A stretch of DNA of 64,000 bases. Source: Paraburkholderia ginsengiterrae. GTDB lineage: Bacteria; Pseudomonadota; Gammaproteobacteria; Burkholderiales; Burkholderiaceae. The DNA lies in contig NZ_LXKA01000360.1 in assembly GCF_001645125.1 (NCBI RefSeq), positions 186,001-250,000 of the forward strand. Direction: 5' to 3'. Positions 29,947 to 56,473 of this stretch are shown here, piece by piece. The position numbers and the translations under genes were made by a program. The notes beneath the pieces are model-generated. The model made no database searches, was not told the origin of the DNA, and worked only from the letters and a program-made list of their open reading frames with translations. Positions within the stretch are counted from its first letter, which is position 1; each line of letters begins with the position of its first letter.

Positions 29947-29960
29947 TTGACACAAATCAA
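29947..29960 (-). promoter_or_regulatory. FNR-type box (hemerythrin promoter)
   Basis: TTGACACAAATCAA, one mismatch to TTGAT-N4-ATCAA. -10-like CATAGT at 29925-29920, 21 bp away on the minus strand. Confidence 0.65.
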
Positions 29961-30039
29961 TCCAGTCATCGACTTTTGCAAGCCCAGCTTGCGCACGAAT
30001 TGTCTTGATGTCGCGGGATGACATATCAAGGGCATTGCG

Positions 30040-30053
30040 ATGATCGAGATCAA
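30040..30053. promoter_or_regulatory. FNR-type box, distal (beta-CASP gene)
   Basis: ATGATCGAGATCAA, one mismatch. No -10 at the standard distance; it sits 19 bp centre-to-centre from the proximal box at 30059. Confidence 0.5.
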
Positions 30054-30058
30054 TCCGA

Positions 30059-30072
30059 CTGATCTATGTCAA
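30059..30072 (+). promoter_or_regulatory. FNR-type box, proximal (beta-CASP promoter)
   Basis: CTGATCTATGTCAA, two mismatches, with -10-like TCCAAT at 30094-30099, 21 bp downstream. Confidence 0.5.
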
Positions 30073-30142
30073 TGGCCCGCCAGCCCCTTGCCGTCCAATA
30101 AGAATCGTGCGGAAACGCACGGCTACCCGACGGAGACCGACA

Positions 30143-31507
30143 ATGAAACTGACCTTTCTCGGCGCCAGCGAGACTGTCACCGGCTCGAAGTATTTGCTTG
30201 AGGATACGGGTGTCCGCATCCTCGTCGATTGTGGGCTGTTTCAGGGCGTCAAGAACCTCCGGTTGCGCAACTGGGCTCCCCTGCCCGTTCCCGCCGATTC
30301 GCTCGAGGCTGTGATCCTCACACACGCGCATATAGACCACAGTGGCTACCTTCCGCTGCTCGTACGCAATGGTTTTCGTGGCCCCGTCTATTGCACGCCG
30401 GGAACCGCGGATCTATGCAACATCATGCTGCGCGACAGCGCGCGGCTACAGGAAGAAGAAGCGGACTTCGCGAACCGCCACGGATACTCGAAACACAAAC
30501 CCGCATTGCCGCTCTACACGCTCGACGACGCACAGCGCGCGCTGCAACTGTTCGTACCGCGGGCGTTTGACGAGCCGGTCAATCTGACGCATGGGCTTTG
30601 CTTCCGCTTCCTGCGAGCGGTTCATATTCTCGGCGCAGCCAGCGTGGTTATGTGCCGGAATCACAAAATCCTCGCATTCTCCGGTGACGTGGGTCGACCC
30701 GAGGACCCCATCATGCATGCGCCGACGCGGCTTGTACATGCCGACTATCTCGTCGTCGAATCAACCTACGGTGACCGCCTGCACCCCGACAGCATTCCCG
30801 AGGACGAGCTCGCGCGGATATTCAGCCGCACGTTCGCGAAGGGCGGAATCGTCGTCATGCCGTGCTTCGCGGTGGGACGCGCGCAGGAGATTCTCTACTA
30901 CATTGCAAAGCTCAAGGAAACGGGGCGGATGGCGAATGTGCCCGTCTACCTGGACAGCCCGATGGCAACGAGCGTCACGGAGGTCTACCGCAGACACCTC
31001 AACGAGCATCGGCTGACGGTCTCCGAAGCAAACGCAATCGACAAGGCAGCCATCATGGTTCGAACCGTCGATCAGTCAAAGGAGATTGCGGGACACCACG
31101 GGCCGATGGTGATCATCGCCGGTAGTGGCATGGCAACGGGTGGTCGCGTGCTGCATCACCTGCATCTGTATGCCGACGATCCTCGCAACACGATCGTGCT
31201 CGTGGGCTTCCAGGCGCCGGGCACACGCGGTGCGGCGCTGGCTGCTCACGAACCGTCAATCAAACTGCACGGCGAATACGTGCGCGTGCGTGCAACTGTC
31301 GAGTCGGTCACGTCCCTCTCGGCGCATGCCGATTATCGCGAAATGCTGCAATGGCTATCAGGTCTCGCCGATCCGCCGAAGCGGACTTTTGTAACACATG
31401 GGGAGCCCGCAGCAGCCGATGCAATGCGCAGACGTATTGCGGAAACGTTGGGCTGGCCCTGCGAGGTGCCTGTTTATCAAGAGACCGTGGAACTGGAGGG
31501 GTTATAG
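30143..31507 (+). CDS. MBL-fold beta-CASP RNA nuclease
   Basis: 454 residues. Metallo-beta-lactamase motif HxHxDH is H61-A-H63-I-D65-H66 (LTHAHIDHSG), with GDVGRPEDPIM and further ligands downstream. A beta-CASP domain (FAVGRAQEILYYI, SPMATSVTEVYRRH) and the C-terminal RNA-specificity segment (SLSAHADYREML, FVTHGEPAAADAM) are complete. This is the YSH1/CPSF-like group found in bacteria, predicted to cleave or trim RNA in the cytoplasm. Such genes recur in low-oxygen islands of proteobacteria. GGAGAC precedes the ATG. Two FNR-type boxes lie upstream. Confidence 0.93.
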   Translation: MKLTFLGASETVTGSKYLLEDTGVRILVDCGLFQGVKNLRLRNWAPLPVPADSLEAVILTHAHIDHSGYLPLLVRNGFRGPVYCTPGTADLCNIMLRDSARLQEEEADFANRHGYSKHKPALPLYTLDDAQRALQLFVPRAFDEPVNLTHGLCFRFLRAVHILGAASVVMCRNHKILAFSGDVGRPEDPIMHAPTRLVHADYLVVESTYGDRLHPDSIPEDELARIFSRTFAKGGIVVMPCFAVGRAQEILYYIAKLKETGRMANVPVYLDSPMATSVTEVYRRHLNEHRLTVSEANAIDKAAIMVRTVDQSKEIAGHHGPMVIIAGSGMATGGRVLHHLHLYADDPRNTIVLVGFQAPGTRGAALAAHEPSIKLHGEYVRVRATVESVTSLSAHADYREMLQWLSGLADPPKRTFVTHGEPAAADAMRRRIAETLGWPCEVPVYQETVELEGL

Positions 31508-31846: not shown

Positions 31847-31874
31847 AAAAAAAGCCCCTCTCAGACGGCAGGGG
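31847..31874 (-). terminator. Rho-independent terminator (minus strand)
   Basis: Minus strand reads CCCCT, 10-nt loop, AGGGG, C, then seven T (31853-31847). It ends the candidate small RNA and may also end the channel gene transcript. Confidence 0.7.
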
Positions 31875-31912
31875 TAACTTCCCGCATGGGGGCTTGCGTG
31901 CAGAAAGGCTAT
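31847..31912 (-). ncRNA. Candidate FNR-dependent small RNA
   Basis: On the minus strand an FNR-type box (31946-31959) is followed at 21 bp by a -10-like TAGCAT (31924-31919). A transcript starting near 31912 would run about 65 nt to a T7 tract and contain no ORF. Predicted folding: a short 5' hairpin CGCA/TGCG exposing an AGCCCCCA loop (31894-31887), a single-stranded GTTACC stretch, then a terminator hairpin CCCCT/AGGGG. C-rich loops like this commonly pair with Shine-Dalgarno sequences in regulatory RNAs. All of this is inference from promoter geometry plus terminator. The alternative is that the hairpin simply ends the K+ channel transcript. Confidence 0.5.
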
Positions 31913-31945
31913 GGTTTCATGCTAGAACCCGCTGACATTGCAACA

Positions 31946-31959
31946 TTGATCCAGATCAG
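31946..31959 (-). promoter_or_regulatory. FNR-type box (candidate small RNA promoter)
   Basis: TTGATCCAGATCAG, one mismatch to the consensus. -10-like TAGCAT at 31924-31919, 21 bp away on the minus strand. No protein gene starts in that direction. Confidence 0.65.
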
Positions 31960-32042
31960 CGGACTACGTTAAGCCTGCCAGACGATCAGGCTCTCAGCAG
32001 GGAGACTTGCCAAGCCTTCGTTGAGCAACTTGCAGAGTTTCC

Positions 32043-32882
32043 TCACGGAGCGTCGCGAGGGCGTAGTTGAACAACGTCATCGCCCCCTCCTCCTGAGATA
32101 TTCAACGCCTTTCGCAACGCGTTGAGCTCCACATGCATCCGGATGATTTCATCGCTCAGACGCTTGATATCGCGATGCATCTCGTGCCGCAGCGCCCGCT
32201 CCTCCTTCCCGATAAACGCCGCAGCGATGCTCGCGAACACGAGCGATAGCATCCCGTAACCCAATAGAACGACGAACGCCGCAAAGACGCGCGACGCAGG
32301 AGTCGTCGGTGCAAAATCACCATATCCGACCGTAGCACCGCTTTTAAAAGCAAGCCATAAACCATCAGCGTAAGAATGCACCCGCGGTTCAAGCCAATAA
32401 AATCCCGCACCTGCCATCGCGAGGACGCACGCCCCTGCGACCAGCAGCCACACCAGACGGTTAGGTGTAAAAAAGCTTCGTAGAGACAGAACAATGCGAA
32501 GCGCCACGAGGCACATGAACGCCATCCGGAGAAACCACTCGGCCGGTTGCCATGGGGTCGCTCCAAAGCCGGCACTGAGCCCAGACCCGATCATGATCAC
32601 CAGGTCGAGTCGGTTATGCGCGAGCCATACCTTTGGCTTTCTGCTCACGTGGTGCATCCAGGTTAGCAACGACGCAAAGCCGGCGAACATGCAAAGGTAC
32701 AGCGTACGTGCAACTGTCAGCGAGAATTGGGCGGTAGCATTCAGTTCAATGTAGAAGGCAGGTATGGCGAGGAAGCTCAACGCGCAAAGCACCCAGCGGA
32801 CGCGGCGCCACGCGCGAATCGCCCGAGGGCCATCGTGCGAGTCCACGCCACCCAGTCCGAAATTGCCGAGCTCGCTGTCCAT
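32043..32882 (-). CDS. Two-pore-type potassium ion channel protein
   Basis: 279 residues from ATG 32882 (a TTG at 32900 is the alternative). Several hydrophobic helices are followed by a pore helix and the selectivity filter TVGYGDF, then a last transmembrane helix and a charged cytoplasmic coiled tail (KRLSDEIIRMHVELNALRKA). This is the six-helix KcsA/Kv-like voltage-gated channel superfamily architecture, lacking an RCK domain. K+ flux at the inner membrane is the expected role. The filter is intact. An FNR-type box at 33011-33024 lies upstream. Confidence 0.88.
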   Translation of the reverse strand: MDSELGNFGLGGVDSHDGPRAIRAWRRVRWVLCALSFLAIPAFYIELNATAQFSLTVARTLYLCMFAGFASLLTWMHHVSRKPKVWLAHNRLDLVIMIGSGLSAGFGATPWQPAEWFLRMAFMCLVALRIVLSLRSFFTPNRLVWLLVAGACVLAMAGAGFYWLEPRVHSYADGLWLAFKSGATVGYGDFAPTTPASRVFAAFVVLLGYGMLSLVFASIAAAFIGKEERALRHEMHRDIKRLSDEIIRMHVELNALRKALNISGGGGDDVVQLRPRDAP

Positions 32883-33010
32883 GGTTTGATCAGGTGCCAA
32901 ACGAGTTGCCTTCCACTGTGGCAGGTCTACGCGAACTGTCTCCTGTGCGTGACAGGCATACAGGCCAAGGCATCACGCGTTTCAGGCTATCTCAGGTCTC
33001 AGTGCCGTTT

Positions 33011-33024
33011 TTGACGCAGATCAG
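33011..33024 (-). promoter_or_regulatory. FNR-type box (K+ channel promoter)
   Basis: TTGACGCAGATCAG, two mismatches. -10-like TAGCCT at 32989-32984, 21 bp away on the minus strand. Confidence 0.5.
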
Positions 33025-33076
33025 GGATACGCCTGACCGCGTTTGCAGTCGTCAAGATTGTCGTGAGCTGCTCTGG

Positions 33077-34380: not shown

Positions 34381-34464
34381 CTCAGCCTCCTGATGAAATA
34401 TCCGCATTGAGTCGCGCTGCCGTCGTTCGACTGTCTCACTGTATTGGCGGGTCGCAGTTCGCGA

Positions 34465-34478
34465 TTGATCTGCATCAA
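34465..34478. promoter_or_regulatory. Perfect FNR box serving two divergent promoters
   Basis: TTGATCTGCATCAA, a perfect match. TAGACT at 34500-34505 faces ackA and TACAGT at 34443-34438 faces phaB, each exactly 21 bp from the box. Confidence 0.75.
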
Positions 34479-34585
34479 CAGGCTCGCCCGTCTGGCTCAT
34501 AGACTCGAAATCGCACTGTGGTTCGCTCATCAGTTCCATACGAGGCTGACGGGCGTTTTTTCCTGATGTCGCATTGAGGGACGAC

Positions 34586-35836: not shown

Positions 35837-35974
35837 TCGACTATTTATTTGCCAATCCCGGTACGTCGCTGTTGCGTTGGCTGCGCCTGCGGAATCGCGC
35901 ACAATGGCATCACAAGGCAATCTGGATCGCTACACGCTGCACAATCGCCTCCCGACACGGCAGGCATACCCCGC

Positions 35975-37384
35975 ATGAAGGCTCGGATGAAAATCAACCC
36001 GGAAACCAGTCGCGCCGCCGGATTGCGCCAGCAAAGCCTGGGCAGAGGCTTCGGCGCGCCCGCCGTACTGACTCTTCTGACCTTCGCCGTGACCGCGGGA
36101 ATCACGCTCGCCGTATCGCGGCTCGTCATGCAGCAGTGGGAAGGCACAGATGAATTGGTCGCGACCCGCGCAGCAACCATTGTCCTCGTCGCCGGCATGG
36201 CGGCCTCGGCGCTCTTTGCCGTCCTTGCGTGGCTGATCGCGACGTCACGCTCCCCCATCAACCCCATGCCGGACGAAGCGCGCCGCAACGAGGCGCGCAT
36301 GATGGGCATCATCCGTTCGTCGATGGAGGCGATCATCACGATCGACGACGCCCAGAACATCCTGATCTTCAACCCAACGGCGGAACGGGTCTTCGGCGTC
36401 ACGGCGATGGATGCGATCGGCATGCCGCTTTCCCGTTTCATTCCGAAGCGCTTCCGTGACGCGCACGTACAACATGTCACCCGGTTCGGCGTCACAGGCA
36501 TCTCCGAGCGGAAAATGGGCCAGCAACGCGTGTTGTACGGCCTGCGCGCGAACGGTGAAGAGTTCCCGCTGGAAGCGTCGATTTCGCAGATACAGGAAGA
36601 TTCAGGCAAGCTCTTTACGGTGATGCTGCGGGATGTCACCGAACGCGTCAAATCGGAGAATGCGCTGAAACAGTCGCGAGAAGAACTGCGCCTGCTATCG
36701 GCCAACCTGCAGAACGTGCGGGAGGAAGAAAAAACGCGCATTGCGCGCGAGCTTCACGACGATCTCGGGCAGCAATTGACGGCTCTGAAGATGGATCTTT
36801 CCGCTGTAGAACAGGATCTGGCTGCCAATCGCGACGCGGCCGGCCCGGTCGACAGCAGCGTGTCGAACCAGTTGCGCGGCATGCGCCGCATGATCGACTC
36901 GACCGTGGCGTCGCTGCGCCGCATCGCCGCCGACCTCCGGCCGGTCATGCTCGACGATCTTGGCCTCGCGCCCGCAATCGAATGGCTCGCGAACGATTTC
37001 ACGAGCCGTTACGGCATCGATATCACGCGCAGAATCGATCCGGGCAACGTCGTCTTTACGAAGGAAGGCGCGACGGCTGTCTTCCGGATCGTCCAGGAGG
37101 CACTCACCAACGTCGCCCGTCACGCCGATGCGACCGCCGTTGAACTGACGCTTCAGGCGAGCGATCAGCACTACCTGCTCCGGATCGAGGACAATGGACG
37201 CGGCGCCAGCCAGCATGCAAGCCCGAATGCCGGTCCGGACAAGTCGTTCGGTCTGATCGGCGTGCGCGAACGCGCGTACATGCTGGGCGGCACCGTCCAG
37301 ATCGACACCGCAGAAAACAAGGGCTTTGCAATCACCGTCAAGTTCCCCTTGCAGTCCGTGCAACAGGAAGAGGCCCACCGATGA
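35975..37384 (+). CDS. Membrane PAS sensor histidine kinase (HisKA_3)
   Basis: 469 residues. Two transmembrane helices at about 30-52 and 66-88 with almost no periplasmic domain, a PAS domain at about 105-225 (ITIDDAQNILIFNPTAERVF), HisKA_3 with phospho-acceptor His near 259 in ARELHDDLGQQLTALKM, and a GHKL ATPase (EALTNVARHADAT, EDNGRGAS). ATG 35975 is a best guess; 35849 and 35984 are in frame. Overlaps its response regulator (ATGA at 37381), making a clear two-component pair. The kinase at 43315 shares much of the catalytic region. Confidence 0.92.
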   Translation: MKARMKINPETSRAAGLRQQSLGRGFGAPAVLTLLTFAVTAGITLAVSRLVMQQWEGTDELVATRAATIVLVAGMAASALFAVLAWLIATSRSPINPMPDEARRNEARMMGIIRSSMEAIITIDDAQNILIFNPTAERVFGVTAMDAIGMPLSRFIPKRFRDAHVQHVTRFGVTGISERKMGQQRVLYGLRANGEEFPLEASISQIQEDSGKLFTVMLRDVTERVKSENALKQSREELRLLSANLQNVREEEKTRIARELHDDLGQQLTALKMDLSAVEQDLAANRDAAGPVDSSVSNQLRGMRRMIDSTVASLRRIAADLRPVMLDDLGLAPAIEWLANDFTSRYGIDITRRIDPGNVVFTKEGATAVFRIVQEALTNVARHADATAVELTLQASDQHYLLRIEDNGRGASQHASPNAGPDKSFGLIGVRERAYMLGGTVQIDTAENKGFAITVKFPLQSVQQEEAHR

Positions 37385-38028
37385 TCAAGGTATTGCTGGC
37401 TGACGACCATACGCTTGTACGCGATGGGCTCCGCCATATCCTCCAGAAGGCAAGCGGATTCGAGGTGGCGGGGGAAGCATGGGACAGCGTCACGACCATT
37501 GCCCTCGTGCGCTCGACCGATGCACATGTGCTCCTGCTCGATCTGTCGATGCCCGGCCGTAACGGCATCGAGCTCATCAAACAGATCAAGGATGAAAAAC
37601 CGGGTCTGCGCGTGCTCGTGCTGACCATGCACGCGGAGCAGCAATATGCCGTGCGTGCGTTCAAAGCGGGGGCATCCGGCTATCTGACCAAGGAAAGCGC
37701 GAGCACGGAACTGGTCGGCGCGGTGACGAAAATCGCTTCCGGCGGTGTCTATGTGAGCCTCGCGATGGCGGAGCGTTTCGCGCAGAATCTCAACGAGCCG
37801 GTCGAAGCTATGCCACATCAGCGCCTGTCCGACCGCGAATTCGACGTCTTCCGGCGCATCGTCGCGGGCCAGAGCATCACGGAGATCGCACACGAGCTGT
37901 GCGTCAGCGTCAAGACTGTCAGCACACACAAGACGCGTATCCTCGAAAAAATGCAGATGCCCAATGAGAACGGGCTCGTGCGCTATGCGATCCGCCACAA
38001 GCTTTTCGACGACGAAAACGACGTCTGA
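37381..38028 (+). CDS. NarL/FixJ-family response regulator
   Basis: 215 residues. Receiver with D8/D9 acidic pair and phospho-acceptor D54 (LLLDLSMPG), K104-region GYLTKES. LuxR-type HTH (LSDREFDVFRRIVAGQSITE, CVSVKTVSTHKTRI). Translationally coupled to the kinase at 35975. By position it is a candidate controller of the island alongside the FNR-type protein. The perfect palindrome at 38070-38085 lies just after it and could be its target. Confidence 0.93.
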   Translation: MIKVLLADDHTLVRDGLRHILQKASGFEVAGEAWDSVTTIALVRSTDAHVLLLDLSMPGRNGIELIKQIKDEKPGLRVLVLTMHAEQQYAVRAFKAGASGYLTKESASTELVGAVTKIASGGVYVSLAMAERFAQNLNEPVEAMPHQRLSDREFDVFRRIVAGQSITEIAHELCVSVKTVSTHKTRILEKMQMPNENGLVRYAIRHKLFDDENDV

Positions 38029-38139: not shown

Positions 38140-38574
38140 ATGCGGTCGCCGATACTGGTTGACATGGATACCGCAACGTCAACCCTCGTAACGAAGGTCT
38201 ATCTCGTCGACGACACGCTCGAGGTCAGGCGGCGGTTTGCGCGTCTGCTCGCCGCCATTCCGGGCGTTGCCATTGCCGGTGAATCCGAAGACACGGACGA
38301 GGCGCTGGCAGGCATCCTTGCAAGCCATGCGGACGTCGTTGTCCTCGATATAAGGCTTGCTGGCCAGACGAACCTTGGACTGATCAAAGCACTATCCCGG
38401 GCAAAGCCGACCATCGTGAAGATCGCACTTACGAACTATTCCGGCGCCGCTTTTCGCCGGGCGTGCGAAGTGGCAGGCGCGGATTTCTTCTTCGACAAAA
38501 CGTCGGAGTTCGACAAGGCCTGCCGCACTATCCATTCCATCGTCAACGCGCGTACCGCGCGACATGCTGTTTGA
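38140..38574 (+). CDS. Receiver-only response regulator
   Basis: 144 residues (start 38140, or ATG 38164). Single receiver domain: acidic pair D24/D25 in VYLVDDT, phospho-acceptor D70 in VVVLDIRLAG, Thr/Asn in IALTNYSG and Lys in FFDKTSEF. No output domain, so it acts by protein contact or as a phosphate sink. It lies between the NarL-type regulator and the FNR-type protein and may modulate the two island kinases. Neither possible start has a strong ribosome-binding site. Confidence 0.85.
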   Translation: MRSPILVDMDTATSTLVTKVYLVDDTLEVRRRFARLLAAIPGVAIAGESEDTDEALAGILASHADVVVLDIRLAGQTNLGLIKALSRAKPTIVKIALTNYSGAAFRRACEVAGADFFFDKTSEFDKACRTIHSIVNARTARHAV

Positions 38575-38587
38575 ACAGGAGCTGATC

Positions 38588-39370
38588 ATGCAAGTTGCAC
38601 CAGCCCGCGAAGCACAACGCCTTTCGGCGCACGCCCCTACCGTGATACCGATTCATGCCGTCACGCCGGGCAGCGTGTCACGGCACGGTACGCCCCGCTG
38701 CTCAGCCTGTTCAATGCGCTCGATCTGCATGCCGCCCGAGCTGAGCGCCGACGAACTGGCCAAACTCGATGCGGTCATCTGTACGACGCGTTCCGTCAAG
38801 CGCGGCGACACGCTCTACCGGGCAGGCGACATGTTCCAGAGCATTTACGCTGTGCGTGTCGGTTCGTTCAAGACTGTGCTCATGCACCGCGATGGCCGTG
38901 AGCAGGTCACCGGCTTTCAGATTGCAGGTGAAGCGCTCGGTCTCGACGGTGTTTGCGGCGGCAACCACAACTGCGATGCGATCGCTCTCGAAGACAGCAT
39001 CGTCTGCATCATTCCCTTCGCGCAACTCGAAGCCATCTGCCGCGAGATCAAATCGATGCAGCATCACATCTATCAGATGATGAGCAGCGAGATCGTCCGC
39101 GAATCGAGCCAGATGATGCTGCTTGGCACGATGACAGCCGAACAGCGGGTCGCGACGTTTCTGCTCAATCTGTCCAGACGCTTCAAGGCGCGCGGATTCT
39201 CGCCTGCGGAATTTCATCTACGCATGACACGCGAAGAAATCGGCTGTTATCTCGGCATGAAGCTCGAGACAGTAAGCCGCATGTTCTCGAAGTTCCAGCG
39301 AGAGCGGCTCGTGCATGCCAACGGCAAGACGGTCCACATCGTCGATCCGGAAGGACTCGCACAGGTCTGA
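38588..39370 (+). CDS. FNR-type oxygen-responsive transcription regulator (4Fe-4S)
   Basis: 260 residues. C38, C41 and C47 (RCSACSMRSIC) reproduce the C-x2-C-x5-C spacing of E. coli FNR C20/C23/C29. C140 (EDSIVCIIPF) aligns with C122, so all four cluster ligands are present. A cAMP-type sensory barrel, dimerisation helix and HTH follow. The recognition helix LETVSR keeps the E-xx-SR residues that read TTGAT. ATG 38588 has AGGAG upstream. It is therefore the obvious regulator for the TTGAT-N4-ATCAA boxes found across 29.9-56.5 kb. Confidence 0.93.
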   Translation: MQVAPAREAQRLSAHAPTVIPIHAVTPGSVSRHGTPRCSACSMRSICMPPELSADELAKLDAVICTTRSVKRGDTLYRAGDMFQSIYAVRVGSFKTVLMHRDGREQVTGFQIAGEALGLDGVCGGNHNCDAIALEDSIVCIIPFAQLEAICREIKSMQHHIYQMMSSEIVRESSQMMLLGTMTAEQRVATFLLNLSRRFKARGFSPAEFHLRMTREEIGCYLGMKLETVSRMFSKFQRERLVHANGKTVHIVDPEGLAQV

Positions 39371-39425: not shown

Positions 39426-40082
39426 TCTGCCTCAAAGCAGTTGCGCTTCGCGTTGCAATACGCAGTGCTTGCCCCGTCGAATCACAACACGCAACCCTGG
39501 CAATTCATTGTCGATGGCGATACGGTACAGGTATGCGCTGACCGGATGCGCGCGCTTCCGGTTGTCGATCCATTCGATCGCGAGCTGCTCATCAGTTGCG
39601 GTGCGGCACTCTTCAATCTTCGCGTCGCACTCGGTCGCTTCCGTCTGGCCTACGCTATCACCCTGTTTCCATCCGAGTCGGACCCCGACATCGTGGCGCT
39701 CGTGCGCGTATCACGCGAAGGTCATTGGGACGCGCAACTCACGGGCCTCTTTGGCGCGCTGACGGCGCGCGTGACAACGCGAGCGCCATTCGTTAATGAA
39801 CCCATCCCGGCATCGCTGCAACAGAAACTGATTGATGCGTGCGACGCGGAAGGCACGATGGCATGCTGCGTGGATGGACTTGTTGAACGCCAAGCCATCG
39901 CGGACCTGATTGCCGAGTCGGACCAAATGCAATTCGCCGATCCGCGTTTTCGTCGCGAACTCGCGAGCTGGATTCATCCGCAGCGACGCAACGACGGCAT
40001 GCCCGCTTACGGCACCGCTGTTGGCGGGTTGCTCGATTTTGCGTCACCACTTCTGAAGCTTCGTCCACATGCATCCCTTTGA
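39426..40082 (+). pseudogene. Truncated nitroreductase (Acg-like) gene
   Basis: Reads RFALQYAVLAPSNHNTQPWQ, the FMN-site signature of Acg-type nitroreductases, from about 39441. The 5' end is in another frame (VPTVWKVDLPQ around 39400-39432), separated by a TGA in the main frame at 39423. The 3' end stops after AYGTAVGGLLDFASPLL, about 213 residues against roughly 330 for the family. Both ends are damaged. A TTG start at 39441 with no ribosome-binding site is the only way to call it intact. A box-like TTGATCTGCCTCAA at 39422-39435 lies in the broken 5' end. Confidence 0.65.
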
Positions 40083-40542: not shown

Positions 40543-40965
40543 ATGAGAATCACCGTCCACCTCGATACATTCGAATGCGCCGATCTCGCCGTCTACGCCA
40601 TTCTCTGGCTCGACCGCGAAGCACGCAAATGGTCGCGTGAGGGGCATGCTGTAATCGATGTTCCTGAATGGGGCAAGCTCGGCTATTCGAACGGCGGCAC
40701 GCGAATTTATGACGCTGCGGGTACGCATCGATTCTGCGAGTTGTCGGGTCTCGATCTCACCTCACCGGGAGGTCCGTTCGAAGGCGAATCAGGCCAAGTG
40801 CTCTGGTACCGACACGCACATCGTGCGCCCGTGGTCGGTCAATGGCATGTGCAGTGCGTCGACGAGCATGACGTGGAGCCCGAAAACGGCGTCTTTGCAG
40901 ATGGAGACGTAGTGTTACATCCGTCTACATGGCGTCAACCTGGAGCACCTGATGATTCTGCGTGA
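40543..40965 (+). CDS. Hypothetical protein upstream of phosphoketolase
   Basis: 140 residues, ATG with AAGGAGG upstream (a TTG at 40540 is adjacent). No signal or membrane segment. Acidic, with repeated Gly/Glu loops ([35 protein letters not shown]). I do not recognise the family. Its last 14 bases overlap the start of the phosphoketolase gene, so they are translationally coupled, which suggests a role linked to that enzyme. Confidence 0.8.
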
Positions 40966-42945: not shown

Positions 42946-43124
42946 AGCATGCTCTCCAGAAATATTCGTGCCGTATGCCGGCATGTGCTTCAGGGGCGTC
43001 ACCGGCAGATCGAACGTGCGGCGCGCAGCCAGGTGGCAGGGATGCCCCTGAGATGACCTCTAAGCGCCCGCGTCGCGTGCTTTGCGTCCGTACTGTCAGC
43101 GTATCGTTGGGCGCGCTGGCACGA

Positions 43125-43138
43125 TTGATCCAGGTCAA
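43125..43138 (-). promoter_or_regulatory. FNR-type box (hsp20 side)
   Basis: TTGATCCAGGTCAA, one mismatch. -10-like TACGCT at 43103-43098 faces hsp20 at 21 bp. No equivalent faces the kinase. Confidence 0.5.
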
Positions 43139-43255: not shown

Positions 43256-43269
43256 CTGATATAAATCAA
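43256..43269 (+). promoter_or_regulatory. FNR-type box before the soluble kinase
   Basis: CTGATATAAATCAA, one mismatch, 46 bp before the kinase start. No clear -10 at the standard distance. Confidence 0.5.
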
Positions 43270-46187: not shown

Positions 46188-46201
46188 ATGATCCAGATCA
46201 A
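46188..46201 (+). promoter_or_regulatory. FNR-type box (carbamate kinase promoter)
   Basis: ATGATCCAGATCAA, one mismatch. -10-like CCTAAT at 46224-46229, 22 bp downstream. Confidence 0.55.
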
Positions 46202-46285
46202 TCGGTCCCACTCCATACGGTGACCTAATTCACTTATGTGAAGACAGCCACGGTGCTCGTGGCACCACGCGGACCGGAGGACATC

Positions 46286-47197
46286 ATGCGAATTCTGATT
46301 GCGCTAGGCCGATCTGCGTTAGTGCGGCGCGGCGAACCGATGACCATGGCTCACCAGATGGCTAATATCCGCCGTGCCGCGCTGCAAATCGCCCGGCTTG
46401 CCGACGGCAACGAACTGGTTGTCACGCATGGCAACGGCCCCCAGGTCGGCCTGCTGGCCTTGCAGGCCACTGCAGCCACTGGTGTGGCGGGCGCGGCTCC
46501 GCTCGATGTGCTCGGCGCCGAGTCGGAGGGCATGATCGGCTATCTGCTCGAGCAGGAACTGGCCAACGCGCTGCCCGCCCAGCGCCAGGCCGCGACACTG
46601 CTTACGCGCGTCGAAGTCGACCCCCAGGATCCAGCCTTCCGGCATCCCGCCAAGCCGATCGGCCCGGTTTATACGGAAGCGGAAGCCGAACGTCTGACGA
46701 GTCGTACCGACTGGATCTTTGCGCGGGACGGGAACGAATTCCGGCGCGTCGTTGCGTCACCGAAGCCGCAACGCATCATGGCGCTTCAGTCCATTGAATG
46801 GCTGCTCGAGCGCAACGTGGTCGTGATTGCTGCCGGCGGCGGGGGAATTCCGGTCAGTGCCGCACACGATCGACAGACGCGCTCCGGCGTGGAGGCCGTG
46901 ATCGACAAGGATCTGTGCAGCGCCCTGCTGGCCACGGATATGGGTGCCGATCTGCTGCTGATTGCAACCGATGTGGATGCGGTCTATGCCGACTGGCACA
47001 CGCCGTACGAACGGATACTGAGCCAGGTATCCGCTGCCGGCCTGCGGTCGATGCCCTTCCCCGCCCACTCGATGGGCCCGAAAGTCCAGGCTGCATGCGA
47101 TTTTGTCACGCGCACCGGCAAGCGCGCGGTGATCGGTTCGATCGATCATATCGAGGCAATGGCAGCTGGAACGACAGGAACTCAGATCACGCTGTAA
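46286..47197 (+). CDS. arcC: Carbamate kinase with an altered GGNAL motif
   Basis: 303 residues, family function carbamoyl phosphate plus ADP to ATP plus carbamate. The amino-acid-kinase fold is recognisable throughout: VVTHGNGPQVGLLAL, VIAAGGGGIPV, VIDKDLCSALLATDMGADLL and IATDVDAVY. The highly conserved N-terminal ALGGNAL reads ALGRSAL here (codons at 46307-46315), replacing Gly with Arg and Asn with Ser in the phosphate-binding loop, which may reduce or abolish activity. ATG 46286 has GGAGG 7 bp upstream. No arginine deiminase or ornithine carbamoyltransferase gene is adjacent. Confidence 0.9.
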   Translation: MRILIALGRSALVRRGEPMTMAHQMANIRRAALQIARLADGNELVVTHGNGPQVGLLALQATAATGVAGAAPLDVLGAESEGMIGYLLEQELANALPAQRQAATLLTRVEVDPQDPAFRHPAKPIGPVYTEAEAERLTSRTDWIFARDGNEFRRVVASPKPQRIMALQSIEWLLERNVVVIAAGGGGIPVSAAHDRQTRSGVEAVIDKDLCSALLATDMGADLLLIATDVDAVYADWHTPYERILSQVSAAGLRSMPFPAHSMGPKVQAACDFVTRTGKRAVIGSIDHIEAMAAGTTGTQITL

Positions 47198-47290: not shown

Positions 47291-47980
47291 CTAGATGCCG
47301 GGCATCACCGGATACGGCTCGGTGTGATCCTCCACACGCTTGACGCCGGGTATGCTTTGCGCCGCCACACGGACGGCGTCAATGGCTTCCATCGAATGAA
47401 AAATGCCCCACAGGTGCACGACTCCACCGGTGACGACGATATTGCGGCCGGCGAAGCTCCACTTACGGCCAGCCAGCTCGCCCATCAGCATCGCACGGAT
47501 CTCGGCGTCCGGGAGCGTCACATCGGCTGCCGGCTCATCCGGCACGCTGGCGAGTGCCTGCACAAGGTTGGCGCGGCTCACGATGCCCACGAGCTGGCCC
47601 GCCTTCGTCACGGGTACGCGTTTGATGCGCCGCGTCTCGAGAATACCGGCCACCTCGGCGAGCGGCGTGTCGGGCTGAACGCTGATCGCGCCAGTGGTCA
47701 TCACGTCACGCACTTTCGTCGCGTGCGTTTTGATGTAATCCCGCGCTTCATGGCTAGCCGACCAGAATTCGAGCCACGAGGTTCGCGCACGCTCGTCAGT
47801 ACCGATTTCGCTGCGGCGAAGCAGATCGCCTTCGCTGATCATGCCGGCGATATGGCCGTCGGTGTCCAGCACCGGCGCACCGCTGATGCCGTTATCGACA
47901 AAGATTTTTGCAACCTCCCGCACGGTCATGTCGGGGGTGACGGTTATGACATTGCTGGTCATGACATCGGATGCGCGCAT
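47291..47980 (-). CDS. CBS-pair plus BON domain protein
   Basis: 229 residues. Two CBS motifs (about 8-60, DVMTSNVITVTPDMTVREVA, and about 92-145, DVMTTGAISVQPDTPLAEVA) form a Bateman module that usually binds adenine nucleotides. A C-terminal BON domain (about 155-225, VTGGVVHLWGIFHS and SIPGVKRVEDH) usually contacts membranes or phospholipids. A stress or energy sensor is inferred. No signal peptide, so cytoplasmic. An FNR-type box at 48104-48117 is correctly placed upstream. Confidence 0.92.
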   Translation of the reverse strand: MRASDVMTSNVITVTPDMTVREVAKIFVDNGISGAPVLDTDGHIAGMISEGDLLRRSEIGTDERARTSWLEFWSASHEARDYIKTHATKVRDVMTTGAISVQPDTPLAEVAGILETRRIKRVPVTKAGQLVGIVSRANLVQALASVPDEPAADVTLPDAEIRAMLMGELAGRKWSFAGRNIVVTGGVVHLWGIFHSMEAIDAVRVAAQSIPGVKRVEDHTEPYPVMPGI

Positions 47981-48103
47981 GGCGAGTCTCCTTGAAAATT
48001 AGGATCCTTGAATTCATGGCTCCGGTGCGTTTCGATAGGTCCGCATCTGGGCACCGGCAAGCCCTCGTGTGGTCTAGATTAGGTGCGCGCCGCGCCCTGT
48101 CAT

Positions 48104-48117
48104 TTGACTTGGATCAC
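48104..48117 (-). promoter_or_regulatory. FNR-type box (CBS-BON promoter)
   Basis: TTGACTTGGATCAC, two mismatches. -10-like TAATCT at 48081-48076, 22 bp away on the minus strand. Confidence 0.45.
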
Positions 48118-48136: not shown

Positions 48137-48787
48137 CTATCTCACCACCAGATTGTCGACCAGCGCATGAACCCCAGGCGCCGACCATGCCGCACCGCGC
48201 ACCGCCACGCGTTCCGCCACTGAATCGACGGTACCTGTTAGCGTGACCGTTCCTTCATGCACCTTCACCTCAATATGCTTCGCTTCGCGTTCGGCGTGGC
48301 GTTGCAGCGCTTTGCCGATCTGTTCGCCGATATCCTGCGCCGCTGCGTTGCCACCTATCCGGATGAGGTTCGATACCCCCGTCACCCCACGCATCTGTGA
48401 AATTGTGTGCGTGGCGACGTGGCTCCGATACGCGCAATCAACCTCGCCGCTCAGTGTCACCCGGCCTTTCTCGACCTGCACCTTCACCGCCTCTTCGCTC
48501 AACCCGACTGTCCAGTGCATGATGGAGCGAACAGCATTGGCGATTTCTTCATCTGTTCGCACATCCGAATTCAGCAGGCGGATGTCCATTTCCACGACGA
48601 CAGCCTTGACACCGGCGACACGCTGCGCCGCTTTCTCTGCCGCGAGCTTTTCCGCAAGACTTGCGGGATGGCCAGATAGCGTCACGACCCGATCGCGCAC
48701 TTCGACACCGATGTCCGTGATGTTGACCGCCGGATCCCACGCCAGCTCTTCTTCGACCTGCCGTTTCAATTCCATGTCCGATTTCAT
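48137..48787 (-). CDS. Triple-BON-domain protein
   Basis: 216 residues made of three BON repeats of about 65-70 residues, each with the V-x-L-x-G signature (DRVVTLSGHPASLAEK, GRVTLSGEVDCAYRS, GTVTLTGTVDSVAER) and a closing GV/VxN strand. No signal peptide is visible, unlike OsmY, so cytoplasmic unless exported by another route. BON domains bind phospholipid or act in osmotic and envelope stress. ATG 48787 with AAGGAG upstream. Lies between the CBS-BON gene and an alcohol dehydrogenase on the same strand. Confidence 0.92.
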   Translation of the reverse strand: MKSDMELKRQVEEELAWDPAVNITDIGVEVRDRVVTLSGHPASLAEKLAAEKAAQRVAGVKAVVVEMDIRLLNSDVRTDEEIANAVRSIMHWTVGLSEEAVKVQVEKGRVTLSGEVDCAYRSHVATHTISQMRGVTGVSNLIRIGGNAAAQDIGEQIGKALQRHAEREAKHIEVKVHEGTVTLTGTVDSVAERVAVRGAAWSAPGVHALVDNLVVR

Positions 48788-48867
48788 TGCGTGCTCCTTA
48801 TGTTTGCGCTCGGACGGTGCCCTCGTCGGCAACTTCAGCGTGACGGGATTCATCGTCGACACCGCCG

Positions 48868-49908
48868 TTACGGCATTTCGATAATCACCTTCAATGCATG
48901 GGAATCCGCGGCCCTTCCGAAAGTCTCATAGGCGTTCAACACGTCCTCGAACTGGAAGCGGTGCGTAATCAGGCTGGCGGGATCAAGCCGGCCGGAGCGC
49001 ACCGTTTTCAGCAACATGGGCGTGCTGACCGTATCGACGAGGCGCGTCGTAATGGAAATATTCCGATCCCACAGCGACTCGAGGTGCAGGTCAGCCTTCA
49101 CACCATGCACGCCGACATTGGCGATCACCCCGCCCGGAGCGATCAGCGCCTCGCACAACTCGAACGTTTCAGGCACACCTACAGCCTCGATCGCACAATC
49201 CACGCCGACGCCGCCGGTGAGTTTCATCAGGGCCGCCACCGGCTCGCTCATCCGGCTGTCGATGCATGCGGTTGCCCCGAAACGGCTCGCCGCTTCCAGC
49301 CGATGCGCATCGCGATCGATCATGATGATCTGGGCCGGCGAGTAAAACTGAGCGGTGAGCAGCGACGCCAGTCCGATCGGACCCGCGCCGACAATCGCCA
49401 CCGTGCTGCCGGGCTGCACCTTCCCGTTGAGGACCCCGCACTCGAAGCCGGTTGGCAGGATGTCGGACAGCATCACGAGCGCTTCTTCGTCGGCGCCGGC
49501 GGGAATCGGGTAAAGACTCGTCTCCGCGTGCGGAATGCGCACGTATTCAGCCTGGGTTCCGTCGATACGGTTGCCGAGAATCCAGCCGCCGGTCGTGCAG
49601 TGCGAATACATGCCGCGCCGGCAATACTCGCATTTGCCGCAAGAGGAAATGCACGAGATCAGCACATGATCGCCCTCCTTTAACGAACTGACAGCCGTGC
49701 CGACCTGGTGCACGATGCCCACTCCCTCGTGTCCCAAAATGCGGCTGGGCTCGCACGTTGGAACATCGCCCTTCAGAATATGAAGGTCCGTGCCGCAGAT
49801 CGTGGTGCGAGTCACCTTGACGATAGCGTCGGTGGCGCTGGCGAGTTGCGGCATGGGCCGCTCATCGAGCGACTTCTTGCCAGGGCCGTGATAGACAAGT
49901 GCTTTCAT
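48868..49908 (-). CDS. Zinc-dependent alcohol dehydrogenase
   Basis: 346 residues, medium-chain dehydrogenase. Catalytic Zn ligands in TICGTDLH (Cys) and LGHEGVG (His, Glu). The structural Zn site is ISSCGKCEYCRRGMYSHC. NAD(P)-binding motif VGAGPIGLASLL. ATG 49908 with GGAGG upstream; the extension to 49941 is unneeded. The dehydrogenase may reoxidise NADH under oxygen limitation by reducing aldehydes or ketones, which is inference from the island context. 80 bp upstream of the triple-BON gene, probably one transcript. Confidence 0.93.
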   Translation of the reverse strand: MKALVYHGPGKKSLDERPMPQLASATDAIVKVTRTTICGTDLHILKGDVPTCEPSRILGHEGVGIVHQVGTAVSSLKEGDHVLISCISSCGKCEYCRRGMYSHCTTGGWILGNRIDGTQAEYVRIPHAETSLYPIPAGADEEALVMLSDILPTGFECGVLNGKVQPGSTVAIVGAGPIGLASLLTAQFYSPAQIIMIDRDAHRLEAASRFGATACIDSRMSEPVAALMKLTGGVGVDCAIEAVGVPETFELCEALIAPGGVIANVGVHGVKADLHLESLWDRNISITTRLVDTVSTPMLLKTVRSGRLDPASLITHRFQFEDVLNAYETFGRAADSHALKVIIEMP

Positions 49909-49965
49909 CGACAACCTCCGTTGATCAGTCGGGCCTGCCATGAGGCCGGAATCAGGTTTGCGAAT

Positions 49966-50319
49966 TCAGATGTGCGCGATGCCGCGCTCGAGCAGCCGTT
50001 CTGCCGCATCGAATGACGCCCGCACTGCGTCATCGGGATCCTCACTCTGGCGATGCTTGAGTGGCATCAGTTCACCCGAGCGCAGGACCAGATCGAGCCG
50101 CGCGTCGAACAGGAGATGGCTCGGCATCGCGTCCTGCGCGGCGCTACGCGCACCGGATGTCTCGCTCAACGCCCGCCCATGAACGGCCTCGATCGCAAGA
50201 TGGCATCCCGAAATGGTTTTGCCGAACCGCTCGAGGCGCACCAGTTGCGCTGCCGCCTCCGACTCGATTTGCGCGGAGCCGGCAAATCCGAGGTAGACGA
50301 TCTGCATATCGATTCCCAT
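49966..50319 (-). CDS. HPF/RaiA-like ribosome-associated protein
   Basis: 117 residues. MQIVYLGFAGSAQIESEAAA, then LVRLERFGKTISGCHLAIEA and HLLFDARLDLVLRSGEL, then DDAVRASFDAAERLLER follow the beta-alpha-beta-beta-beta-alpha order of ribosome hibernation factors. It lacks the long C-terminal dimerisation domain, so a short-form HPF/YfiA homologue. Such proteins silence ribosomes in stationary or hypoxic cells, which fits the island. ATG 50319 with GGAGG upstream. FNR-type box at 50425-50438 with a -10-like GATGAT at 21 bp. Confidence 0.75.
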   Translation of the reverse strand: MGIDMQIVYLGFAGSAQIESEAAAQLVRLERFGKTISGCHLAIEAVHGRALSETSGARSAAQDAMPSHLLFDARLDLVLRSGELMPLKHRQSEDPDDAVRASFDAAERLLERGIAHI

Positions 50320-50424
50320 GCTGCCTCCGCCCGTGCAGTTCTATCCTTTGACCATTGCGACAATGAAAGCCGCATTCGGCAGCGAGCCCATGCGGAGATC
50401 ATCCGCGCTAATCGCGCGCCGGGA

Positions 50425-50438
50425 TTGACCTGCATCAA
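50425..50438 (-). promoter_or_regulatory. FNR-type box (HPF-like gene promoter)
   Basis: TTGACCTGCATCAA, one mismatch. -10-like GATGAT at 50403-50398, 21 bp away on the minus strand. Confidence 0.6.
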
Positions 50439-50504: not shown

Positions 50505-50518
50505 TTGATCCAACTCAA
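50505..50518 (+). promoter_or_regulatory. FNR-type box (Nramp promoter)
   Basis: TTGATCCAACTCAA, one mismatch. -10-like TATGGT at 50540-50545, 21 bp downstream. Confidence 0.65.
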
Positions 50519-50588
50519 CGAGCATCCGCGCTGCGCGGGTATGGTCCAGCCCATACGTCCACGGCCATCACCCCTCGGGGACCACCAC

Positions 50589-51947: not shown

Positions 51948-52214
51948 TCAGCAAGTCCATTCGAGCGTCGCGTATTGCGCCAGATGACGTTTCAACGTAT
52001 TCACGAACAGCAACAGCGATGGGGCCGCCGCACCGCGGTGCACTTCAGCCGCGCGCACCTTGTATTGCGCGACAGGCGCCCGGCCGGCCAGCGCACGCAT
52101 CTCGTCAAAGGCGGCCTGACTGCCGAAGCCGCCGCAACTGCAAAAGAACGCGACATGTCTGAACTTCAAGCGGTTCTCCTCCAGAGCAAACACAAGGACG
52201 CACACGGGCGTCAC
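51948..52214 (-). pseudogene. C-terminal remnant of a flavodoxin-like protein
   Basis: Reads FRHVAFFCSCGGFGSQAAFD, then EMRALAGRAPVAQYKVRAAE, the last third of small flavodoxin-family proteins in which VAFFxTCGG is the 90s-loop flavin region. The N-terminal phosphate-binding loop is missing: only about 20 unrelated residues precede it. An FNR-type box (52254-52267) with -10-like TAAGCT remains correctly placed 40 bp upstream, as though the 5' coding part was deleted up to the promoter. Confidence 0.55.
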
Positions 52215-52253
52215 GGATTTGCTCAGAGCTTAGGCTGCAGCTGGCGGTGGCTC

Positions 52254-52267
52254 ATGACGCAGATCAA
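52254..52267 (-). promoter_or_regulatory. FNR-type box (flavodoxin remnant)
   Basis: ATGACGCAGATCAA, two mismatches. -10-like TAAGCT at 52232-52227, 21 bp away on the minus strand. Confidence 0.45.
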
Positions 52268-52300
52268 GCTCCGTCGTCACGCGCAACGCCGGAGCTGCCG

Positions 52301-52314
52301 TTGATCTGCATCAA
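52301..52314 (+). promoter_or_regulatory. Perfect FNR box (USP operon promoter)
   Basis: TTGATCTGCATCAA, perfect. -10-like TAGACT at 52336-52341, 21 bp downstream, the same hexamer and spacing as the ackA promoter. Confidence 0.75.
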
Positions 52315-52387
52315 TGGGCCTGCGGCGATCGTTTCTAGACTCAAGCTCACGTATCACGTGCCCCTGTCCCCTCCTGGAGCGACCGCC

Positions 52388-53224: not shown

Positions 53225-53259
53225 GCGCGGAGCCTTCTCTTTCTTTGGGAGTGTTCGCC

Positions 53260-54593: not shown

Positions 54594-54620
54594 GTAGCGG
54601 ATTGACACCGAACGGGCGCG

Positions 54621-55607
54621 CTAACGGATTTTGAGCACTGCCGCACCTGTCAGCCGGCCATCACGCAGGTCACGCAGTGCCCGATTGGCATCGGTCAGAG
54701 GATAGGTCGTGGTTGCGATCTCGAAGCAGATTTCGTCTGCAATACGCATGAAGGCAAGCCCATCGTCGCGGGTCAGATTCGCGACTGACACCACGCGCCG
54801 TTCGCCCCACAAAAACGCATAGGGGAACGACGGAATGTCGCTCATGTGAATCCCGCCGCACACCACCACACCGCCTTTCGCGACCGCTCGCAAGGCTTTC
54901 GGAATCAGGGCACCGACGGGTGCGAAAAGCAGCGCCGCGTCGAGCTCGTCAGGCGGAGCATCCTCGCTGCTGCCCGCCCACGCCGCGCCGAGACGCAGCG
55001 CGAGTTGCTGGGCGGCGTGGTCTCCTGGCCGTGTAAACGCATACACCGTACGCTGCTGATGACGCGCGACCTGCGCGACGATATGCGCTGCAGCGCCGAA
55101 TCCGTAGATGCCGATCCGCTGCGCGCTGCCCGCCATGCTCAAGGTGCGATAGCCGATGAGGCCGGCGCATAGCAACGGCGCCGCCTCGATGTCCTTATAG
55201 TGCTGCGGCAGATGGAAGCAGTAGCGGCTGTCGGCGACGGTGCGTTCCGCGTAACCGCCGTCAATCGTATAGCCCGTGAAAACGGGCTCGTCGCAGAGAT
55301 TTTCCCGCGCCGACAGACAGTAGCGGCAATGCCCGCAGGTGTGGCCGACCCATGGCACCCCCACGCGGTCGCCGACGGCGAACCCGGTCACGCCCGAGCC
55401 GAGCGCGGCAACCGTGCCGACGATTTCGTGCCCCGGAATCACGGGCTGTTTGGGATGCTCCAGTTCACGATCGACCAGATGAAGATCGGTGCGGCACACA
55501 CCACATGCGTGAATGTCGATCAGGATTTGCCCGGCTCCAGGTGTCGGATCTGGCAGCACCTGCTCACGCAGCGACGGCGTCTTGCCGTCGAACACCATCG
55601 CACGCAT
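54621..55607 (-). CDS. Zinc-dependent alcohol dehydrogenase (AdhA type)
   Basis: 328 residues, medium-chain dehydrogenase. Catalytic Zn site in HACGVCRTDLH and IPGHEIVGTV; structural Zn cysteines in GHTCGHCRYCLSARENLC; cofactor motif YGFGAAAHIVAQ. The sequence resembles the bacterial propanol-preferring AdhA group. ATG 55607 with TGGAG upstream. Different from the enzyme at 48868, so the island carries two alcohol dehydrogenases. No FNR box is evident directly upstream; it may be read from the USP promoter at 56370. Confidence 0.93.
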   Translation of the reverse strand: MRAMVFDGKTPSLREQVLPDPTPGAGQILIDIHACGVCRTDLHLVDRELEHPKQPVIPGHEIVGTVAALGSGVTGFAVGDRVGVPWVGHTCGHCRYCLSARENLCDEPVFTGYTIDGGYAERTVADSRYCFHLPQHYKDIEAAPLLCAGLIGYRTLSMAGSAQRIGIYGFGAAAHIVAQVARHQQRTVYAFTRPGDHAAQQLALRLGAAWAGSSEDAPPDELDAALLFAPVGALIPKALRAVAKGGVVVCGGIHMSDIPSFPYAFLWGERRVVSVANLTRDDGLAFMRIADEICFEIATTTYPLTDANRALRDLRDGRLTGAAVLKIR

Positions 55608-55756
55608 AGGATTTTCTCCACGATCCTGCTGTAGCCGCCGACACCCGGTGACATGCGGACGCGATCCAGGCGACACGCGTCTGTCTCCAGAATAGGGGCT
55701 AAGCGCGATCCGTCAAATTTGCGCCTCGACGCCACCCGGCATCAACCTCACGTTGT

Positions 55757-56215
55757 TCACGTCGCGCCTGCCGCATCGCGGACCAGCAGCACGGGACAGG
55801 TCGAGCGCCGAAGGAATTGCTCCGCTACGCTGCCCATCGTCATACGCTGGATCCCGCGGCGTCCGTGGGTACCCATCACGACAAGGTCCACGCTATGTCC
55901 CTGCACGTAACGCAGCAGGCAGGTAGCGACGTCCTCGCTGATGTTGTCCGTCTCTGCTGTATCGACCTTGCACGCAACGTTGCTCCTGGTTGCCTCCATA
56001 CGCGCATCCGCCAGGATCCGATCGCCTTCAGTCCGCAATGCCTCGACCATCGAAAACTGGTCGTGGTTGGCCAAATAGGCAAACATCGCAAAACGGTCGA
56101 GCACGTACAGCGCCGTCAGGGTGCCGTCAGCCAGCTTCGTCATGCTGATAGCTTCCTTTAGCGCCCTCTTTGATGCGTTGCTGCCATCCAGTGCGACCAC
56201 GATATCTTTGTACAT
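55757..56215 (-). CDS. Single-domain universal stress protein
   Basis: 152 residues, one UspA domain: KDIVVALDGSNASKRALKEA, and VVMGTHGRRGIQRMTMGSVA, the ATP-binding signature. Start taken at ATG 56215 (MYKDI) with GAGAGA upstream; the frame opens 6 bp earlier at 56221. Upstream FNR-type box at 56370-56383 with -10-like GATGAT. Fourth USP of the island and its right-most gene. About 150 bp upstream of the alcohol dehydrogenase on the same strand. Confidence 0.93.
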   Translation of the reverse strand: MYKDIVVALDGSNASKRALKEAISMTKLADGTLTALYVLDRFAMFAYLANHDQFSMVEALRTEGDRILADARMEATRSNVACKVDTAETDNISEDVATCLLRYVQGHSVDLVVMGTHGRRGIQRMTMGSVAEQFLRRSTCPVLLVRDAAGAT

Positions 56216-56369
56216 GACCATTCTCTCAGGTAACCCGCTTACGAATTCGCGCCTGATGGCGTTTCAACCGCATCGTCAGCGCAACGTCCGTTGGAGGTAC
56301 GCTCGCCGCGTGACAAACAAGGCTAACGGCACTCACGAGCTCATCATCGGCGCCTTCCAGGCCTGTGAA

Positions 56370-56383
56370 TTGATTTGTGTCAA
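56370..56383 (-). promoter_or_regulatory. FNR-type box (USP promoter)
   Basis: TTGATTTGTGTCAA, one mismatch. -10-like GATGAT at 56348-56343, 21 bp away on the minus strand. Confidence 0.6.
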
Positions 56384-56459
56384 TCGCGCACGTACCACCG
56401 CTGCCCGGTCCTGCCGAAAATCCGGCGTTTCGCCGCGGCGGCGGCGTATTTGACCGGCA

Positions 56460-56473
56460 TTGATTCAGATCAA
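56460..56473 (+). promoter_or_regulatory. Perfect FNR-type box facing the sigma-54 activator
   Basis: TTGATTCAGATCAA, perfect. -10-like GACTAT at 56495-56500, 21 bp downstream, is weak. It would place the alcohol/PQQ activator under oxygen control. Confidence 0.5.

Follow-up and report, generated by a model that had tools for sequence, protein, structure and literature searches.

A 28-kb island within the window (the whole 64-kb stretch of Paraburkholderia ginsengiterrae DNA that was analyzed) carries palindromic TTGAT-N4-ATCAA boxes at a fixed distance from -10-like hexamers. These are very probably class II FNR promoters, switched by FNR in an island that looks like the Paraburkholderia counterpart of the Burkholderia low-oxygen-activated (lxa) locus. 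This class II reading, proposed from sequence in the preliminary description, is well supported because the spacing, the near confinement to the island, the match with Escherichia coli promoters and the conservation across related species all point to it.

With zero to two mismatches allowed, 36 boxes were found in the window compared with 14.2 +/- 3.8 in shuffled sequences, and 36 was reached in none of 100 shuffles of the window. All 17 boxes first described were recovered, each with 0-2 mismatches and three of them perfect, and a further box at 28597 (1 mismatch) was absent from the original list. Across the 8.53 Mb genome, boxes with at most one mismatch occur at 185 places, 15 of them within 28.5-56.5 kb of the window (P ~1e-16 if uniform), while three of the six genomic places with a perfect box are in the island. 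The promoters and the associated regulators are as follows.

28570..28610, minus strand: box 28597-28610; hexamer CAGAAT (21 bp), facing left into 27415-28658
29920..29960, minus strand: box 29947; hexamer CATAGT (21 bp); downstream, a hemerythrin-domain gene (29170-29802, minus)
30040..30053, no strand: box; neither flank has a -10 at 21 or 22 bp
30059..30099, plus strand: box 30059; weak hexamer TCCAAT (21 bp); downstream, a beta-CASP metallo-hydrolase gene (ORF 30107-31507)
31919..31959, minus strand: box 31946; hexamer TAGCAT (21 bp); no downstream gene recognized
32984..33024, minus strand: box 33011; hexamer TAGCCT (21 bp); downstream, an ion-channel gene (32043-32900, minus)
34438..34505, both directions: box 34465-34478, a perfect match, flanked to the left and to the right by a -10 at 21 bp
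34438-34443, minus strand: leftward -10 TACAGT of box 34465, for acetoacetyl-CoA reductase
34500-34505, plus strand: rightward -10 TAGACT of box 34465, for acetate kinase
35849..37384, plus strand: PAS/HisKA_3 kinase ORF with FixL-like PAS domain, true start possibly later
37381..38028, plus strand: FixJ-like response regulator (receiver and LuxR-type helix)
38564..39370, plus strand: FNR-type regulator with four cluster cysteines and ETVSR helix
40079..40119, plus strand: box 40079; hexamer TAGATT (21 bp); downstream, ORF 40150 and DUF3564
43098..43138, minus strand: box 43125; hexamer TACGCT (21 bp); downstream, HSP20 (42514-43002, minus)
43256..43269, plus strand: box with no -10 at either distance (21 or 22 bp); downstream, a PAS kinase (43315-44415)
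46188..46229, plus strand: box 46188; weak hexamer CCTAAT (22 bp); downstream, carbamate kinase (46238-47197)
48076..48117, minus strand: box 48104; hexamer TAATCT (22 bp); downstream, CBS-BON (47291-47980, minus); spacing conserved in relatives
50398..50438, minus strand: box 50425; hexamer GATGAT (21 bp); downstream, ORF 49966-50319, alcohol dehydrogenase 48868-49941 and BON 48137-48862 (all minus)
50505..50545, plus strand: box 50505; hexamer TATGGT (21 bp); downstream, an Nramp gene
52227..52267, minus strand: box 52254; hexamer TAAGCT (21 bp); downstream, a short ORF (51948-52214, minus)
52301..52341, plus strand: perfect box 52301; hexamer TAGACT (21 bp); downstream, three Usp-domain genes
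56343..56383, minus strand: box 56370; hexamer GATGAT (21 bp); downstream, a Usp gene (55757-56221) and alcohol dehydrogenase (54621-55676)
56460..56500, plus strand: perfect box 56460; weak hexamer GACTAT (21 bp); downstream, a sigma-54 activator gene (56551-58653)

Reading the flanks box by box confirmed the reported counts: a -10-like hexamer stands 21 bp from 13 boxes and 22 bp from two (46188 and 48104). Neither distance gave a -10 for 30040, where both flanks were read, or for 43256. The weak hexamers TCCAAT, CCTAAT and GACTAT fell under our listing cut. The GGDEF gene (44465-46153) and the LuxR-type gene at 28659 have no box/-10 promoter of this kind.

Since the preliminary description had examined one spacing only, every spacing was scored, using all 26 boxes with up to two mismatches in 28-57 kb (52 sides, offsets 5-59) and a -10 matrix whose values were set from general knowledge, with a threshold of >3 bits. 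At offset 21 the threshold was exceeded on 13 of the 52 sides (12 of 34 for the 17 boxes first described), compared with a mean of 0.44 (sd 0.53) for the other offsets without 20-22, the next best of which reached 2. A genome scan for density and spacing, the check suggested at the outset, placed 14 of 18 box-N21-(-10) composites in the island; a composite with a 16-bp gap, taken as a comparison, gave seven genomic places, two of them in the island.

The same distance recurs in relatives and is kept despite shuffled gene order. Among 16 related loci a good -10 was present at 21 bp on 50 of 354 sides and at 22 bp on 16, with 0-9 at other offsets. The related loci L010 and L018 had no -10 at 21 bp, and L016 and L020 had one each. 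The arrangement at the CBS-BON promoter is kept in 17 of 20 relatives and missing from three, and its distance to the start codon ranges from 81 to 271 bp. In a family-wide count over 120 genomes, the exact composite occurred at 382 places with the 21-bp gap and at 45 with the 16-bp gap. None was present in 16 of 59 genomes of the genus.

Chance, with boxes and hexamers found because they were searched for, is scarcely credible as the source of this pattern. The original search of one spacing and its three weak hexamers speak for such selection, but the offset and genome scans refute it, and the 16-bp comparison and the genus, related-locus and family counts also stand against it.

In E. coli the distance from box to -10 is 21 bp at the class II FNR promoters of nirB and narK and 22 bp at those of narG and dmsA. 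The palindrome and the 21-22 bp spacing are therefore shared with the island, although the E. coli promoters are spread over the genome rather than clustered, and here one box may serve two promoters. On the favoured reading, the boxes would bind an FNR-type [4Fe-4S] oxygen sensor as a dimer about 41 bp upstream of the transcription start, a position from which the dimer would touch RNA polymerase, which is class II activation. When oxygen falls, FNR would bind and activate those promoters that face a gene, about 14 in all, of which 11 have a good -10 and three a weak one. Their predicted targets include universal stress proteins, HSP20, acetate and carbamate kinases, acetoacetyl-CoA reductase, alcohol dehydrogenases, Nramp and BON proteins, and others.

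The island itself encodes a candidate activator. As the preliminary description had noted, four cysteines and an E-xx-SR helix are visible in the translation of the FNR-type gene, whose product scores 231.8 bits with the NCBIfam Fnr model (cut-off 228) and matches FNR structures with an E value of 2.7e-52. The kinase at 35849-37384 matches FixL structures (E value 1.2e-14) with one histidine aligned, which may be the haem ligand. Because the genes for this kinase, the FixJ-like regulator and FNR come after acetate kinase on the downstream side of box 34465, positive feedback through a putative common operon is likely.

It is quite possible, though less likely than not, that the class II sites are real while the activator is a second FNR-type protein, or a family member of the same DNA specificity, with the island FNR playing a minor part. 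The genome does contain a second FNR-type gene (contig C322), 57% identical to the island FNR, and several related loci with the promoters (for example L011 and L013) gave no FNR match above the cut-off within limited 20-kb stretches. Low-oxygen induction in B. cenocepacia was 77-fold for BCAM0049, outside lxa, and 17-fold for BCAM0287, inside it (PMC4505428). Against this, an FNR gene accompanies the island in five related loci (L007, L008, L009, L014 and L015) and in G253, a genome of another genus. We think it improbable that the main switch is instead the island's FixL/FixJ-type kinases and regulators, with the boxes merely tuning. The island does encode LuxR-type regulators, a sigma-54 activator and two PAS kinases, one of them FixL-like, and FixLJ of B. 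dolosa is described as activated at low oxygen and as inducing fixK (PMC5234846), but in about 14 promoters the box stands at the position where an activator contacts polymerase. The island FNR is our preferred candidate.

Because the switch recurs at one fixed promoter distance in most gene units, we regard the stretch as a relative of the Burkholderia low-oxygen survival locus. Several Usp genes, alpha-crystallin/HSP20, BON and FNR are clustered in both. The two differ in gene order and content, the comparison being with the locus as described; the lxa order usp-HSP20-BON is not seen in the window, where these genes are far apart, and is found in G253, along with 15 more matches to island proteins. 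FNR-box-like motifs at many microaerobically induced B. cenocepacia genes, and an FNR protein inside lxa, are already known (PMC4505428), and that 2015 report calls the functions of the several B. cenocepacia FNR proteins poorly defined. The main text of a 2015 start-site paper (PMC4603805) mentions neither lxa, FNR, Anr nor low oxygen. The Anr regulon of Burkholderia and Pseudomonas shares the regulator type and the box (PMC9104464, PMC11742914), but the Anr genes there sit outside the lxa locus; in B. cenocepacia H111 the cyd promoter bears a TTGATCTCGATCAA site (PMC9104464) and, with both anr genes missing, its activity is 1 Miller unit instead of 82 (PMC11742914). Similar kinds of gene (Usp, alpha-crystallin, Acg/Rv3131-family oxidoreductase) occur in the DosR dormancy regulon of Mycobacterium tuberculosis, a comparison already drawn in PMC6127331, although its regulator and DNA site are different and the likeness is one of analogy, not membership.

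A bolder reading, for which the odds seem a little short of even, is that the island is a portable, self-contained hypoxia regulon of gene-plus-promoter cassettes, reshuffled between species and replicons under kept control and bringing along their own oxygen sensors, with some single palindromic boxes driving two divergent class II promoters whose -10s lie 21 bp off on both sides. As each unit would retain its own class II FNR promoter, reshuffling could occur without loss of control, and the promoters would preserve the common control of the gene set while gene order shifts. In the accessible literature we found no earlier account of the fixed spacing, the near confinement to an island or one box serving two divergent promoters. 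With the fixed spacing, exact predictions can be made for about 14 promoters of the island and for many others in the family, so that it can be tested directly which FNR activates such loci and whether one dimer can serve two divergent promoters.

Three promoters (28597, 31946 and 52254) have no intact gene in their direction. No ORF of at least 90 aa is present in the ORF list for 27415-28658, left of box 28597, and the short ORF at 51948-52214 appears to be left over from a longer protein. At promoter 31946, a U-run preceded by a possible stem lies about 65 nt beyond the expected start. A small RNA was considered here and rejected, being at most a weak idea, since the fold is no better than shuffles (z 0.05). 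Among 145 genus genomes this stretch matched only its own genome and, partially, one other (G053), no box of up to two mismatches was present in the stretch available around that match, and an Rfam search at a permissive threshold gave only one sub-threshold match, to a microRNA family.

Two of the four composites outside the island (L092 and L093) are known from their matched letters alone. The composite at L091 lies near an AraC/DJ-1-type regulator and a fumarase-type protein, and that at L104 has a TetR-type regulator nearby.

The spacing of 21 bp between FNR-type boxes (TTGAT-N4-ATCAA) and -10-like hexamers in the island, the region at about 28-57 kb of the window, is real. All 17 boxes of a preliminary description, numbered here by their start positions, were found where it had placed them, and inspection of their flanks one at a time confirmed its claim of a -10-like hexamer 21 bp from the box edge for 13 boxes and 22 bp for two; boxes 30040 and 43256 have no such hexamer at either distance. 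Three of its hexamers, TCCAAT (30059), CCTAAT (46188) and GACTAT (56460), are weak and fell below the cut for listing. Since that description had itself cautioned that only one spacing was inspected, all offsets from 5 to 59 were scored with a -10 matrix (values written from general knowledge; cut 3 bits) on the 52 sides of the 26 boxes with two or fewer mismatches in 28-57 kb. Offset 21 exceeded 3 bits on 13 of the 52 sides, while the remaining offsets, 20-22 excluded, averaged 0.44 sides (sd 0.53), with two sides for the runner-up. The earlier list lacks box 28597, from which a CAGAAT lies 21 bp away. Seven others of the 26, also unlisted but counted in the test, are situated inside or next to coding sequence or for some other reason have no -10 at that distance. 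Measured alike, the Escherichia coli K-12 nirB and narK promoters have 21 bp to the -10 (TAAGGT in both) and narG (TACCTT) and dmsA (AATACT) have 22 bp, and no clear box/-10 pair was found for nrfA. According to PMC3688515, of 23 activated promoters whose starts are known, 19 have the FNR site at the class II position, -41.5 (+/-4).

A scan of the genome (8.53 Mb in 393 contigs, the window included) for the same density and spacing elsewhere favoured the preliminary description. Three of the six perfect boxes are inside the window, and 15 of the 185 boxes with one mismatch or fewer fall within 28.5-56.5 kb (P ~1e-16, assuming uniform places). Allowing at most one mismatch, the composite pattern TTGAYNNNNRTCAA-N21-TANNNT was found at 18 places, 14 of them in the island (P ~5e-32 if uniform), and all four mismatch-free composites are island sites. 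A version with a 16-bp gap occurs at seven places, two in the island.

Using the PAS kinase at 43315 to query named genomes, we kept the best 80 of 376 relatives. Gene order is shuffled in the 16 loci nearest by kinase (L007 to L022; titles all Burkholderiales), and the island genes in common range from several to almost none. On their 354 box sides a -10 lies at 21 bp on 50 and at 22 bp on 16, with 0 to 9 for each other offset; L016 and L020 have one 21-bp -10 each, and L010 and L018 none. The next 23 loci (L023 to L045) hold a single one, in L027, a Paraburkholderia; these per-locus counts span L007-L045 of a series that runs to L086. Relatives of this kinase (43315-44415) are carried by 18 records of plasmids or megaplasmids, among which 12 are Paraburkholderia, a count of kinase relatives only.

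The promoter of the CBS-BON gene has a box with two or fewer mismatches and a -10 at 20-22 bp in 17 of 20 relatives (the L130 promoter taken from the alignment), and the arrangement was not found in the other three (L121, L123 and L125); the box-to-start-codon distance ranges from 81 to 271 bp. The exact composite occurs at 341 places in 43 of 59 genus genomes (10 for the reversed pattern) and at 382 places in 79 of 120 family genomes (when the gap is 16 bp, 45 places in 38 genomes), figures to be read as counts and not as tests because the genomes are related by descent.

Perfect box 34465 has a -10 at 21 bp on either side. The window and L007-L022 together have 63 box sides with a 21-bp -10, eight of which belong to four such two-sided boxes (window, L009, L011 and L013); opposite-side -10s at other offsets, 20-22 excluded, average 0.39 with a maximum of 3. 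Among the matches listed, the arrangement recurs in at least five more genus genomes (G011, G019, G021, G045 and G051) and at least two more family genomes (G146 and G243). Judged from its sequence, box 34465 may be a site common to two predicted divergent promoters; a common site has been proposed for Sphingopyxis ccoN/ompW (PMC7713065).

Downstream of box 34465, on one strand, lie genes for acetate kinase, a FixL-like kinase, a FixJ-like regulator, a second receiver and FNR (38564-39370, +). Since the ORFs share a strand and are separated by 111 bp or less, the run suggests one operon with positive feedback, in which the FNR gene would be driven from an FNR box. The encoded protein has C-x2-C-x5-C, a fourth cysteine and ETVSR, and matches FNR structures. 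Because a second FNR gene, whose product is 57% identical, is present on another contig, either protein may be the acting FNR. Burkholderia cenocepacia H111 is without the low-oxygen-activated locus, lxa (PMC3759415), has a TTGATCTCGATCAA site upstream of cyd (PMC9104464) and requires its anr genes for cyd expression (PMC11742914).

By Pfam and NCBIfam, the island encodes a hemerythrin protein, a beta-CASP metallo-hydrolase, an ion channel, acetoacetyl-CoA reductase, acetate kinase, the FixL-like kinase, two receiver proteins, FNR, an Acg-family oxidoreductase, DUF3564, phosphoketolase, HSP20, the PAS kinase, a GGDEF protein, carbamate kinase, CBS-BON and BON proteins, two alcohol dehydrogenases, Nramp and four Usp genes. 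The set is similar to lxa as described in PMC6127331 and PMC9733578. A 60-kb stretch of G253, a genome from another genus (g12), presumably Burkholderia, carries usp, HSP20 and BON genes arranged as in lxa (BCAM0276, 0278, 0280), further matches to island proteins including Acg, FNR, FixJ-/FixL-like proteins, acetate kinase, Usps and the beta-CASP protein, and a -10 at 21 bp on 14 box sides and at 22 bp on six (other offsets, mean 0.70). FNR boxes at lxa-type loci are already known; the partial texts of the literature searched held no mention of the fixed class II spacing, the near-confinement to the island or the shared boxes, which we do not claim to be unpublished. The top NCBIfam score of the beta-CASP protein (30107-31507) is to the type VII CRISPR Cas14 model, but at 371 bits it is far under that model's cut-off of 800, so the protein is only a relative.

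Several promoters look like survivors of the genes they served, of which apparent remnants are left. No ORF of at least 90 aa was found downstream of box 28597 and no recognised gene downstream of 31946; a possible short transcript with a U-run (31848-31912) lies behind the latter orphan promoter, with neither fold nor conservation support found. The other apparent remnants are as follows.

51948-52214 (-), 88-aa ORF faced by promoter 52254, whose relatives, present in 24 of 59 genus genomes (its own included), belong to longer open frames (178-366 codons)
39441-40082, Acg/Rv3131-family oxidoreductase ORF, 213 aa against a 317-residue frame in L012, its stop inside FNR box 40079
40952-42112, phosphoketolase ORF, 386 aa, its match to the N-terminal profile covering only the first half and being followed by a match to the C-terminal profile

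The absent middle of the phosphoketolase may be a real deletion or an assembly fault. After the island, 59043-63498 holds PqqB-, PqqC- and PqqE-like genes, identified by domains only, and a cytochrome c gene.
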